Shown here one piece after another: positions 13,450 to 22,285 of a stretch of DNA of 35,922 nt; position 1 is the first letter of the stretch, and each line of letters starts with the position of its first letter. The position numbers and the translations under genes were made by a program. The notes under the pieces are model-generated. The model was not told the DNA's origin. It did no database searches and saw only the letters and a list, made by a program, of their open reading frames with translations. Source of the stretch: Candidatus Omnitrophota bacterium (lineage in GTDB: Bacteria; Omnitrophota; Gorgyraeia; Gygaellales; Profunditerraquicolaceae); assembly GCA_028718225.1 (NCBI GenBank), contig JAQUMI010000011.1:1-35922 (forward strand), read 5' to 3'.

Positions 13450-14844
13450 ATGGCGGTTAAATTAAAATTTTTAGGCGGAGTAAGAACGGTTACCGGCTCA
13501 AGCCATCTGGTGACATCCGGAAGGACTGAGGTCATCCTGGACGCCGGGCTCTTCCAGGGGCACCGGGATGAGTCTTATAAAATAAACACAGCCTTTAATT
13601 TTAACCCGCGCTCCATTAATGCCCTGGTCTTGTCGCACGCGCACGTTGACCACTGCGGAAATATCCCGAGCCTGATTAAGAAGGGCCTGCGCTGTAAAAT
13701 TTACACTACTCCCGCTACTAAGGACCTGGCCCAGCTTATGCTTGAAGATTCCGGCAAGATCCAGGAAGAAGATATTAAATATGTGAATAAGATAAATAAA
13801 AGGATAGGCCTAGCCGAAAGAAAGCCGCTCTATACTAAAAAAGAAGCGGCCAGGGCTACTAAGATATTCCGGCCAATTGCCTATAATCAAAAATTCTGCA
13901 TTGCTAAAAATATCTACGTTACGCTGCTTAATGCCGGCCACATATTAGGTTCAGCCGTAACCGTGTTGGATATTAAGGACGATAACCGTAGTATACGCCT
14001 GGGTTATGCCGTGGATTTGGGCAGAAAAAACCTTCCTTTACTCAATGACCCGGTTATCCCCAGGGGCTTAGACTATCTGATTTTGGAGAGCACTTACGGC
14101 GCCAGACTCCATGCCCCGGTTGAAGAGGCCCAGTCAAAATTAAGAGAGGCAATCTCGCGTACCCTGCGCCGGGGGGGAAAAGTACTTATTCCGTCTTTTA
14201 CCCTAGAGCGCACGCAGGAAGTAATTTATTTTCTGAACGAGTTGTTAAAAGAAAAACTCATCCCTTATGTCCCGATATACGTGGATAGCCCTCTGGCAAC
14301 AGACATCACCGAAGTATTTGAGTACCATACTGATTACCTGGATAAAGAAACCCGCCAGGCTATTACCAAGGGAGACAGCCCGTTCGGGTTCTTAAACTTA
14401 AGGTTTATCCGCGACCAGAAGGAATCCAAGGCCTTAAATGCGGACAAGCGGCCGATGATTATTATTGCCGGTAGCGGCATGTGCGAATCCGGGAGGATCC
14501 TGCACCATCTGCAGAACAATATTGAAGATTCCCGGAACACGGTCCTGGTAGTCGGCTATATGGCCAAAGATACTTTGGGCAGGAGAATAGTAGACAGGGA
14601 AAAGATCGTGCGTATCTTCGGCATAGAATATGAACTTAATGCGGAAGTAGTGATTATTAACGCTATGTCCGGGCATGCCGATAAGGATGAACTCTTGGAA
14701 TTTGTAAATGCCTGCCTACCTTTAAAACGCATCTTTCTGGTGCATGGAGAAGAAGAACAGTGCCAGGCACTATTTGATACGCTTACCCAAAAAGGCCTGA
14801 ATGTCTATATTCCGTCAAAAGACGAAGAAGTGTTGCTTGAATAG
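13450..14844 (+). CDS. Beta-CASP metallo-beta-lactamase-fold RNase
   Basis: A 464-residue protein of the metallo-beta-lactamase/beta-CASP type, usually an RNA nuclease. The zinc motif is HAHVDH (63-68), with further ligands in NAGHILGS and the Asp of AVDLGRKN. The beta-CASP insert is visible through ESTYGARLH, IPSFTLERTQEVI and VDSPLAT, followed by IAGSGMCESGRILHHL and the closing histidines in AMSGHADKDEL and LVHGEEEQ. The common FSGDLGR motif is AVDLGR here, keeping the metal-binding Asp. It starts 3 bases after DUF1846. The physiological RNA target is unknown. Confidence 0.93.
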   Translation: MAVKLKFLGGVRTVTGSSHLVTSGRTEVILDAGLFQGHRDESYKINTAFNFNPRSINALVLSHAHVDHCGNIPSLIKKGLRCKIYTTPATKDLAQLMLEDSGKIQEEDIKYVNKINKRIGLAERKPLYTKKEAARATKIFRPIAYNQKFCIAKNIYVTLLNAGHILGSAVTVLDIKDDNRSIRLGYAVDLGRKNLPLLNDPVIPRGLDYLILESTYGARLHAPVEEAQSKLREAISRTLRRGGKVLIPSFTLERTQEVIYFLNELLKEKLIPYVPIYVDSPLATDITEVFEYHTDYLDKETRQAITKGDSPFGFLNLRFIRDQKESKALNADKRPMIIIAGSGMCESGRILHHLQNNIEDSRNTVLVVGYMAKDTLGRRIVDREKIVRIFGIEYELNAEVVIINAMSGHADKDELLEFVNACLPLKRIFLVHGEEEQCQALFDTLTQKGLNVYIPSKDEEVLLE

Positions 14845-14864
14845 GAATTGTATGGTAATATAAT
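14837..14864 (+). promoter_or_regulatory. Sigma70-type promoter for the bL27-like gene
   Basis: TTGAAT (14837-14842), a 16-base spacer and consensus TATAAT (14859-14864), overlapping the end of the beta-CASP gene. ATG 14902 follows with a strong AGGAGG, giving the small gene an independent, probably strong start. Confidence 0.65.
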
Positions 14865-14901
14865 TTTTCATTTAAAGAGGCAAAATCAAGGAGGTAATCA
14901 A

Positions 14902-15147
14902 ATGACAGGTGGATTTTCAACACCCAAGAAAGACAAGGCGAATAAAGTTTCCGCAGGTATGTCCGTTTTAACCGGACAAATTTTAGTCAGAGGAGTGGAT
15001 ACTTATAAAGCCGGAATCAATGTTAAGGGCTTAGGTACATTATTTGCTGTTTGCCCGGGCAAGGTTTACTTTACCAGGAAAAAGACCAGCCATGGTAAAG
15101 TACGCACTTTTGTCAATATCAAACCCGCCGAGAAGAAAACTAAATAG
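14902..15147 (+). CDS. rpmA: Stand-alone bL27-like ribosomal protein
   Basis: An 81-residue basic protein. The stretch TGQILVRGVDTYKAGINVKG-LGTLFAVCPGKVYFTRKK and the ending VRTFVNIKP align with the bL27 core (AGSIIVRQRGT, PGxNVGxGxDxTLFA, GxVxFxxK, YVSVxP). The N-terminus is unlike ordinary bL27: the GGSTRNGRDS segment is replaced by GGFSTPKKDKANKV, and the RQRGT element by RGVDT. ATG 14902 was chosen because AGGAGG lies six bases upstream; an in-frame ATG at 14848 would add 18 residues without a ribosome binding site. No rplU or obg is adjacent, so this may be the only, relocated bL27 or a divergent paralogue. The symbol is tentative. Confidence 0.75.
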   Translation: MTGGFSTPKKDKANKVSAGMSVLTGQILVRGVDTYKAGINVKGLGTLFAVCPGKVYFTRKKTSHGKVRTFVNIKPAEKKTK

Positions 15148-15161
15148 GCTTTTAGCGTATT

Positions 15162-16250
15162 ATGCAGGATAGGGCCAAGCAGTATTCTAACATTAAATAT
15201 ACCCTTGAGATTGCGGGTATAATCTATACCTTAGTTATTATTACCCTATTCCTGAAATCAGGCTTATCTCAATGGTTCGTCCTGGCTTTAAGTAAAACCC
15301 AGTTAACTTTCCTGCTCCTTCCTTTATACCTGCTTATAGTATCACTGGGTTATTACCTGCTGGTTCTTCCATTTAATTTTTATCAAACCTATGTCCTGGA
15401 GCACAAATTTTCCTTAACTACCCAGCCGCTGGCGGATTGGTTTAAGGACCAGTTTAAATCCGGAGTAATATCCTACCTGATCATTCTTATACTAGTGAGC
15501 GCGTTTTATTTTATTTTAAAATATAATCCGGATACCTGGTGGCTGGCTGTCTCTATATTCTGGATTTTCTTTAGCATTGTCCTGGCCAAGCTCCTGCCGG
15601 TAGTCATTATCCCGCTATTTTTCAAATATAAAAAACTAAGCGACGGGGACTTGCGCCAGCGTATTATGCGCCTGGCTGGGAAGATGAAGGTCAAGGTTTT
15701 GGATTGTTTTGAGATTGATTTCAGCAAGAAGACCTTAAAAGGAAATGCCGCTTTCGTGGGTATCGGCAATACCCGCCGGGTAATTTTAGCGGATACTTTG
15801 AAGGATAAATACAATTACGATGAAATTGAGGTTATCCTGGCGCATGAATTTGCGCATTATCAGTTGAAACACCTCTTAAAATTGATTCTGGTCAATTCTA
15901 TCATCACGTTGGCAGTTTTTTATTTGATCTTCCGGACCAACGCGTATATTTTGAATTTATTCGGCTTATCCTCTTTGAGCGATCTGGCAGGACTTCCGGT
16001 TGTGCTGGTGTATTTTATTGTCTTCGGTATAGTGACGCAGCCGCTGGAGGCTTTTATCAGCCGGAGCTTTGAGCGGAGCGCTGACAGCGTGGCATTAGAG
16101 GCTACCGGATTAAAAGACGCTTTTATTTCGACGATGGATAAACTCAGCCAGCAAAATCTCAGCGATAGGAATCCCCACCCCCTAATCAAGTTTTTCTTCT
16201 TTGACCATCCGCCGATTGATGAACGCATCAAAGCCGCAGTAAACCACTGA
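15162..16250 (+). CDS. M48-family (Ste24-like) membrane zinc metalloprotease
   Basis: A 362-residue integral membrane protease. It has several N-terminal membrane helices (about 17-32, 48-70, 103-120 and 127-151), the zinc motif HEFAH (228-232), two further membrane helices, and the third zinc ligand Glu304 in FERSADSVAL. It ends with the HPPIDERI element typical of the Ste24/CAAX protease 1 group. Bacterial members are thought to act in membrane protein quality control; the substrate here is unknown. No Shine-Dalgarno precedes ATG 15162. The last 60 bases recur, diverged, at 16733-16792. Confidence 0.93.
   Translation: MQDRAKQYSNIKYTLEIAGIIYTLVIITLFLKSGLSQWFVLALSKTQLTFLLLPLYLLIVSLGYYLLVLPFNFYQTYVLEHKFSLTTQPLADWFKDQFKSGVISYLIILILVSAFYFILKYNPDTWWLAVSIFWIFFSIVLAKLLPVVIIPLFFKYKKLSDGDLRQRIMRLAGKMKVKVLDCFEIDFSKKTLKGNAAFVGIGNTRRVILADTLKDKYNYDEIEVILAHEFAHYQLKHLLKLILVNSIITLAVFYLIFRTNAYILNLFGLSSLSDLAGLPVVLVYFIVFGIVTQPLEAFISRSFERSADSVALEATGLKDAFISTMDKLSQQNLSDRNPHPLIKFFFFDHPPIDERIKAAVNH
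16191..16250 (+). repeat. Direct repeat copy 1: 3' end of the M48 gene
   Basis: These 60 bases, ending at the M48 stop codon, match 16733-16792 at about 42 of 60 ungapped positions by hand count, including a shared TTTTTCTTCT start. The two copies flank the pilin-like gene. Confidence 0.75.
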
Positions 16251-20857: not shown

Positions 20858-21754
20858 GTGCCATCAGATTTAATCAAGCAGTTATTGGAAGCAGGGGTAC
20901 ATTTTGGGCATCAGACTAAACGCTGGAACCCGAAAATGAAGAAATTTATCTTCGGTTCAAGGAGCGGTATCTATATTATTGACCTGGAAAAGACCGAAGA
21001 ATGCATAAACAAGGCCAGAGATTTCCTTATGGATATTACCTCAAAAGGTGAATACGTGCTTTTTGTGGGGACTAAAAAGCAGGCCCAGGAAGTTATGCTC
21101 CAGGAAGCAATCCGTTCAGGCATGTATTATGTGACTGAGCGCTGGCCCGGGGGCCTTTTGACCAATTTCTCGACCATTAAAAAGAGCATAAGCCGCTTGA
21201 AAGAGATAGAGAGGATGCGCGAGGATGGGACATTTGCCAAGCTGACCAAAAAGGAAGTGGCTGGCCTGGAGAAAGAACTGATTAAGCTGAATAAAAATTT
21301 CTCTGGGATCGTGCCGATGGAGCGTATGCCTAAAGCGGTTTTTGTCATTGATACCACTAAAGAGGATACAGCAGTAAATGAAGCCCGGCGCTTAGGGATA
21401 CCCATCGTAGCCCTGATTGATACTAATTCCAATCCGGATTTAGTTGACTATCCTATTCCCGGTAATGACGACGCCACTAAGTCTATTAAGGCTGTGGCGG
21501 ATATTATTACGGATACGATTATTGAGGGAAGGAAAAAGTTCCTCTCTTATCTGGCCCAGGAAGGGGTAAAGATCCAGGAGGAAACCGGGGAGGCTATTGA
21601 ACCGGCATTATTACCCGAAGAAGAGATTAAAATCAAAGAGATTGAAGAGATAGTTGAGGTTGCCGAGCCTGTTGAAGGAGAAGCCAAGCCTGCCAAAAAG
21701 GCGCATATTAAACCGGCGGCCGAAGGAAAAACCAGGCCCAAAAGGAAGGTATAA
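20858..21754 (+). CDS. rpsB: 30S ribosomal protein uS2
   Basis: A 298-residue protein. The family N-terminus LLEAGVHFGHQTKRWNPKMKKFI is clear, as are TNFSTIKKSI and VALIDTNSNPDLVDYPIPGND. Residues after about 230 form an acidic and then Lys/Ala/Pro-rich tail beyond the usual S2 core. Translation begins at GTG 20858 behind GGGGGAGAG. It leads the rpsB-tsf-pyrH-frr cluster. Confidence 0.97.
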   Translation: MPSDLIKQLLEAGVHFGHQTKRWNPKMKKFIFGSRSGIYIIDLEKTEECINKARDFLMDITSKGEYVLFVGTKKQAQEVMLQEAIRSGMYYVTERWPGGLLTNFSTIKKSISRLKEIERMREDGTFAKLTKKEVAGLEKELIKLNKNFSGIVPMERMPKAVFVIDTTKEDTAVNEARRLGIPIVALIDTNSNPDLVDYPIPGNDDATKSIKAVADIITDTIIEGRKKFLSYLAQEGVKIQEETGEAIEPALLPEEEIKIKEIEEIVEVAEPVEGEAKPAKKAHIKPAAEGKTRPKRKV

Positions 21755-21760
21755 ATAAAA

Positions 21761-22285
21761 ATGAAAATATCGGTAGAAGCAATTAAGGAGTTAAGAGAGA
21801 TAACTTCTTCCAGCGTGGCGCATTGCAAGAAGGCGCTGGAGGAGGCAAAGGGAGATATTAAAAAAGCCGCTGAATTATTGCGCAAGCAGGGCCTGGAGAT
21901 CGCCGCCAAGAAACAGTCCCGACTGGCTAAAGAGGGAAGGATAGAGGCGTATGTACATCACGGGAATAAAGTCGGAACATTGCTGGAGGTGGACTGCGAA
22001 TCGGATTTTGTCGCCAAAAACGAAGATTTTGTCAGGTTTACCAAAGATCTGGCGATGCAGATAACCGCGACCAGCCCTTTGTATATCAAAAAGGAAGATG
22101 TCCCCGCGGAAGTAGTGGAACATGAAAAAAATAAAGATGATTTTTATAAGAACCATTGTTTAATGGAACAGCCTTTTGTCAAGGATCCGTCTATTACCAT
22201 TAAGGATTATTTAGGCACTATTGTTTCCAAGATGGGTGAGAATATCATTGTACGCAGGTTCATGCGTTATAAAGTCGGCGAATAA
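21761..22285 (+). CDS. tsf: Elongation factor Ts, short form
   Basis: A 174-residue guanine nucleotide exchange factor for EF-Tu. The N-terminal UBA-like domain ([20 protein letters not shown]), the [12 protein letters not shown] element that contacts EF-Tu, and the ending LEQPFVKD-type segment plus [12 protein letters not shown] are present. It is shorter even than Thermus-type EF-Ts (about 196): the usual EGKP-IVEGKL helix before the EQPF segment is missing. The N-terminal TGAGMMDCKKAL consensus is altered to [12 protein letters not shown]. It lies 6 bases after rpsB. Confidence 0.94.

Follow-up and report, generated by a model that had tools for sequence, protein, structure and literature searches.

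The locus and its neighbours

The window analysed here is a whole stretch of 35,922 nucleotides from a contig of a draft Omnitrophota genome. An open reading frame on its plus strand encodes a protein of 81 amino acids, which an earlier note, made from the letters alone, had described as an orphan, divergent relative of ribosomal protein bL27 with its own promoter. The motifs, neighbouring genes, TATAAT and AGGAGG that it described were all confirmed in place, and the locus is laid out as follows.

13450-14844, plus strand: beta-CASP/RMMBL metallo-hydrolase, conserved upstream neighbour
14837-14864, plus strand: sigma-70-like hexamers TTGAAT-16-TATAAT, 10 of 12 positions matching the consensus (weak evidence)
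14888-14894, plus strand: Shine-Dalgarno AAGGAGG, 7 nt 5' of the ATG (sequence)
14902-15147, plus strand: bL27-like protein of 81 aa, a relocated and tail-shortened rpmA (profile, fold, orthologues)
14902-14934, plus strand: residues 1-11, M-x-GG-[FK]-STPKKD, conserved replacement N-terminus (alignment of 70 relatives plus the window)
15162-16250, plus strand: M48 (Ste24-like) membrane metallopeptidase, 14 bp past the bL27 stop (conserved downstream partner)

A Shine-Dalgarno-like core was found upstream of the divergent bL27 gene in all 68 loci from the window's family. The gene does lie between a beta-CASP and an M48 gene, but it does not stand alone as an orphan, since both neighbours are conserved: the former is upstream in 60 of the 68 family loci and the latter downstream in 60 of the 68, at a median distance of 2 bp (60 loci). 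Promoter-like hexamers are likewise present, but the reading of a promoter of its own is not supported, because a scan of the window found 4 sites against 2.2 ± 1.8 in shuffles, a number that chance would readily give, and the best upstream scores at the 68 family loci were distributed as in shuffles that kept base composition only.

The two conserved neighbours would suit a bL27 body exapted for work off the ribosome, for example together with the flanking M48 protease or beta-CASP nuclease. However, divergent bL27 genes in other families lie beside quite different genes, most often upstream of what we take, from a reading of the sequences, to be glmS- and rsmI-like genes, so the neighbours do not define the function of the protein. 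The body is also clearly still that of bL27 and the genome has no other, and exaptation is considered improbable.

Genes for uS2 (rpsB) and EF-Ts (tsf) were found at 20858-22282 of the window, on the same strand and about 6 kb 3' of the bL27 gene.

Identity and predicted fold of the protein

The only Pfam family that matched the window protein, up to an E value of 10, was PF01016, with a score of 24.2 bits against a gathering cut-off of 20.5 (E 3.6e-5). With the NCBIfam equivalog model TIGR00062 the protein scored 22 bits, where the cut-off is 90.35. Because this score is so far under the cut-off, the annotation is corrected here, and the claim made is one of homology and orthology to bL27 rather than membership of the canonical equivalog. 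When the protein was compared with PDB sequences using phmmer, 35 of the 37 matches listed were bL27 (best E 1.1e-5). By sequence, the protein can be recognised as a bL27, though barely.

An AlphaFold model based on the window protein together with 70 relatives had a mean pLDDT of 85.9, with a strong body; the first ten residues averaged 63, so the model does not place the tail end. The best Foldseek matches were bL27 or mitochondrial mL27. A second aligner (VIA) gave Z scores of 11.3 at best against solved bL27 chains over almost the entire length; against E. coli 6enj_W, residues 1-76 of the model lay on residues 11-85 of the chain (Z 11.2, 72 residues, 2.2 Å), and against Thermus bL27 alone (1v8q_A) 63 residues were matched at 1.5 Å. 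The model thus has the body fold of bL27. Profile placement and predicted fold, either of which could have refuted the earlier note, both agree with the bL27 core signature that it had read in the sequence, and the product of 14902-15147 is a real bL27.

The first residue of the model falls at the usual residue 11, so the protein lacks about ten residues that normally extend as far as the peptidyl transferase centre (PTC). The sequence alignment likewise gives a shortened tail, and neither the AHKK motif nor a tail that would reach the PTC is found in the protein. The N-terminus is therefore different, as had been noted, and more exactly it is shortened, not merely changed. There is no Prp-type cleavable extension (FF|A or LF|A before a normal tip), as the protein begins M-x-GG. 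This start is secure, since the in-frame residues upstream are unconserved and, in several relatives, a stop lies only 3-5 codons ahead of it.

Relatives were aligned from 71 sequences extracted from 80 loci (alignment A4), with one locus, L147, dropped as the wrong open reading frame. Across the 70 remaining relatives and the window, M1, G3, G4, P8, and K10 were invariant, and S6, T7, K9, and D11 were conserved at 90% or more. Comparison of the window gene with those of two near relatives (L090 and L091) gave dN of 0.045-0.051 and dS of 0.77-0.87. The conservation of the N-terminus together with the low dN relative to dS argues that the new N-terminus is under selection and is not decaying, and the gene as a whole is, as judged from these coding sequences, under strong purifying selection.

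Copy number and the rplU-obg operon

The window genome is a draft of 1.04 Mb in 53 contigs, 83.3% complete, and the protein at 14902-15147 was the one PF01016 match in all of it. The rplU gene is on another contig, in the order rng-rplU-obg-proB (rng, obg, and proB presumably, as named from their sequences), and no rpmA separates rplU from obg. The window gene is thus away from the usual operon, and the second rpmA that the earlier note had suggested looking for beside rplU is not there.

The same slot was compared in other Omnitrophota genomes. In canonical loci with both genes found, the gap between rplU and obg was 243-470 bp (24 of 24) and holds rpmA. In contrast, the distance from the rplU stop to the start of the obg domain did not exceed 113 bp in 28 of the 30 loci from non-canonical genomes, those with a divergent bL27 or no match; the two exceptions were 217 and 711 bp, and one further non-canonical locus (G204) had no obg. 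According to a published study, the binning of metagenome-assembled genomes can lose ribosomal genes, rpmA included (PMC9723686). The completeness of the window genome qualifies the claim of an only copy, but the empty slot and the relatives stand against a hidden canonical copy, and the empty slot is not attributable to binning.

The possibility that this is the sole bL27 of the lineage, a relocated and diverged ribosomal protein, is therefore upheld. The other possibility raised before, a paralogue used in stress or quality control while another gene of the genome encodes a canonical bL27, would account for the odd location, the divergent sequence and the promoter-like site. It was rejected, and is regarded as very improbable, given that there was no second PF01016 match, that the rplU-obg slot lacks rpmA, that no genome among 285 had both types of bL27, and that the divergent form is near-universal in its family and strongly conserved.

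Distribution across Omnitrophota

A scan of named genome contigs found 80 loci, nearly all of which were titled Omnitrophota or Omnitrophica. Of 59 genomes sampled from the window's family, 48 have a strong orthologue and the other 11 have no strong match. Among the family genomes that were at least 90% complete, 25 of 26 had a strong orthologue and the 26th had only a chance-level match. Such near-universal retention under strong constraint is what would be expected of a housekeeping ribosomal protein.

In two profile searches of 285 Omnitrophota genomes, 137 had a canonical bL27 (PF01016, E ≤ 1e-24), 94 had a divergent one (profile A1, E ≤ 1e-13), none had both, and 54 had neither, the tables being counted by hand. 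Seven PF01016 matches (E 0.003-0.7), and weaker A1 matches to canonical proteins, were kept out of the divergent count. The 94 genomes with the divergent type comprised 48 of 51 from the window's family and 46 from other families. In the other families the N-terminus of the divergent protein is different, for example MGGRVGGITSKYYYETAG (20 genomes read), but in the alignment these proteins agree with that of the window: five residues are deleted from the tail, RQRG is one residue shorter, the GxGKDHT loop is reduced in length, and a hairpin has been inserted. In a bL27 tree, 20 divergent sequences from other families and 15 from the window's family formed one clade with a long stem (support 100/99).

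Two of the 54 genomes with neither type (G278 and G234) carry a third, still more divergent bL27-like form, which was far from the rest in the tree on a very long branch. The genes are at L220:1456-1695 (minus strand) and L221:113-340 (plus strand), and the proteins begin MAYQGTHDVQKHGSRAWRQRLKVS and MAFKGTHNVQAHGSRAWRQRLKVS; the gene adjoining the one in L220 is, judged from its sequence, RNA 3'-phosphate cyclase-like. Profile A2, run over 27 genomes of the no-match families, found bL27 only in these two. Profile A3, run over 30 such genomes, gave 8 matches up to an E value of 5: five in frames of 1509-2478 aa, which we take by their size to be RNA polymerase subunits, two in frames of 542-544 aa, and one in a stop-containing frame of 44 residues. 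The glmS loci of the no-match families (22 loci, from 20 of 24 genomes) contained no convincing bL27 by profile. Neither profile found bL27 in families f20, f28, f36, and f37, which include the single-contig genomes G075 (searched with both profiles) and G249 (with A3), these being absences by profile only.

Two trees of Obg (46 and 55 rows) grouped most of the non-canonical genomes, though they represent a single gene with long branches. They did not contain a single non-canonical clade, and constraining these genomes to one clade in the larger tree was nearly rejected (p-AU 0.07), though not at 0.05.

Tail shortening was also found in genomes that keep rpmA between rplU and obg (12 genomes examined, loci L336-L347). 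In family f8 the body is canonical and the tail, MAH[MV][VT]NGRD (for example MAHMVNGRD), is about six residues short of the full MAHKKGxGSSRNGRD. A genome of f15 has MAHKGLGNGRD, with about four tail residues missing, and one f21 genome has an altered start, MGKGSSSGKNNRE. The shortening in f8 is, going by these sequences, independent of that in the divergent clade.

Ribosomal RNA and uL16

The 23S rRNAs of five genomes with a divergent bL27, four with no match, four canonical Omnitrophota, and E. coli were compared; two further sequences from the window's family, that of G102, which was unlike the others, and that of G037, which was partial and badly aligned, were left out of the count. The bases around the PTC were ordinary in the divergent-bL27 genomes, and no compensating remodelling of the PTC was found in this set. 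At 14 positions all five divergent genomes departed from a base shared by E. coli and all four canonical genomes, but most of these departures were common to some of the no-match genomes, and those at 583, 2434, and 2532 were found in the divergent genomes only. Position 2434 (E. coli numbering) was U in all five divergent genomes and A in the four canonical genomes, the four no-match genomes, and E. coli. A single insertion column, after E. coli 846, was common to at least four of the five divergent genomes. No loop insertion was found in uL16 in 23 aligned proteins, those of 29 that a sequence pattern extracted, the other six loci being dropped by it.

These comparisons bear on whether the tail might still reach the PTC, either because the path through the rRNA has shortened or because the true start is further upstream. 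The very strong conservation of the N-terminus is as expected of a functional tip. However, the in-frame residues upstream are unconserved, with stops close by in several relatives, and the five divergent and four no-match 23S rRNAs gave only the one common insertion column and no PTC remodelling. A tail that reaches the PTC is therefore held to be unlikely.

The draft genome of G102 may include a contig of foreign origin that carries its 23S rRNA gene (L269). Long insertions near the PTC helices were seen in L264, L268, and other 23S loci, and at least one of them apparently has a homing-endonuclease-like frame.

Proposed role and comparison with known bL27 proteins

The reading that we prefer, with a probability of roughly 80%, is that the protein is the only bL27 of its lineage, present in the large ribosomal subunit as a structural body, with a tail too short for the PTC. 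In some ancestor within the phylum, rpmA would have disappeared from its place between rplU and obg while persisting elsewhere as a rapidly changing gene. The changes would have included a five-residue deletion in the NGRDS region of the tail, removal of one residue from RQRGT, shortening of the GxGKDHT loop, and a new hairpin ahead of the last strand. The window's family would then have lost about four to five additional tail residues, giving the start M-x-GG-x-STPKKD. The protein would sit in the large subunit and act structurally as the bL27 body does, its new N-terminus probably lying on 23S rRNA along the former path of the tail. Compared with E. coli and Thermus the tail lacks about ten residues, so its tip is expected to end before the PTC. 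We infer that the protein is incorporated into the ribosome with its tip in this position, and that the PTC and the entry of tmRNA are managed without an AHKK tip.

The divergent form resembles canonical bL27 (PF01016/TIGR00062) in its body fold, in its single copy per genome, in being small and basic, and in the core GQ-V-aGxIivR...G-NV-...tLfA...G-V-F. Canonical bL27 has an AHKK..GGS..NGRDS tail and an RQRG, whereas the divergent form is without both and about ten residues shorter; it also has a shorter GxGKDHT loop, an extra hairpin before the last strand, and a gene outside rplU-obg. No report of a tail-shortened, relocated bL27 in Omnitrophota was found in the literature searched, which did not extend to subscription papers.

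Other bL27 proteins with unusual N-termini are comparable in part. The long bL27 of Firmicutes, matured by the Prp protease, also has a lineage-specific N-terminus, but there the extension is cleaved to expose a normal tip (PMC9405229), while in the Omnitrophota form the tip itself is absent. Ribosomes without a normal tip are also found in E. coli with rpmA deleted or with AaaaAGG tail mutations, but these are laboratory mutants, the deletion being nearly lethal according to a preprint (PMC12871816), and the Omnitrophota lineage is natural and has SmpB and tmRNA. The f8 protein is from the same phylum and has a shortened tail, but unlike the divergent form it has a canonical body, keeps its operon and the MAH, and lacks about six residues within the tail.

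Implications for tmRNA-SmpB

The tail of bL27 is the part of a protein closest to the catalytic site, and its removal barely alters catalysis. In a 2026 preprint, removal of bL27 or mutation of the HKK of the tail reportedly made tmRNA-SmpB more efficient, and deletion of rpmA lowered viability 10,000-fold, with partial rescue by deletion of the tmRNA gene (ssrA) (PMC12871816). The same preprint proposes that the tail excludes tmRNA-SmpB, which would perhaps explain its near-invariance and its co-conservation with tmRNA (PMC12871816).

Hand counts gave SmpB in 49 of 51 genomes from the window's family and in all seven sampled f20 genomes. A tmRNA was found in 13 of 20 smpB regions, including 6 of 7 loci from the window's family, the window's own genome among them. 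The divergent lineage thus has no HKK and no tail reach, yet SmpB and tmRNA are retained. This would mean either that such a gate does not account for the tail in general or that these bacteria gate tmRNA by other means. A broader reading, to which we give slightly less than even odds, is that much of Omnitrophota abandoned the PTC tip by at least two routes (the divergent clade and f8), with f20, f36, f28, and f37 lacking a profile-detectable bL27, while SmpB, and tmRNA where seen, were kept; in that case tmRNA-SmpB would be controlled without the tip, perhaps even without bL27 altogether, or the gate would have moved to another part of the ribosome. Because the co-conservation of tail and tmRNA is broken in natural lineages, the idea of a gate can be tested by comparison, and a sole recognisable copy that is relocated and has lost its tip is a natural test of the function of that tip. 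The divergent bL27 is also relevant to sets of genes that are used as universal markers.

The usual tmRNA tag ends in LAA. The tags predicted by ARAGORN in the window's family (for example L316:4440-4836, plus strand) do not, and end in forms such as PVFAN, AFGIN or ALPW.
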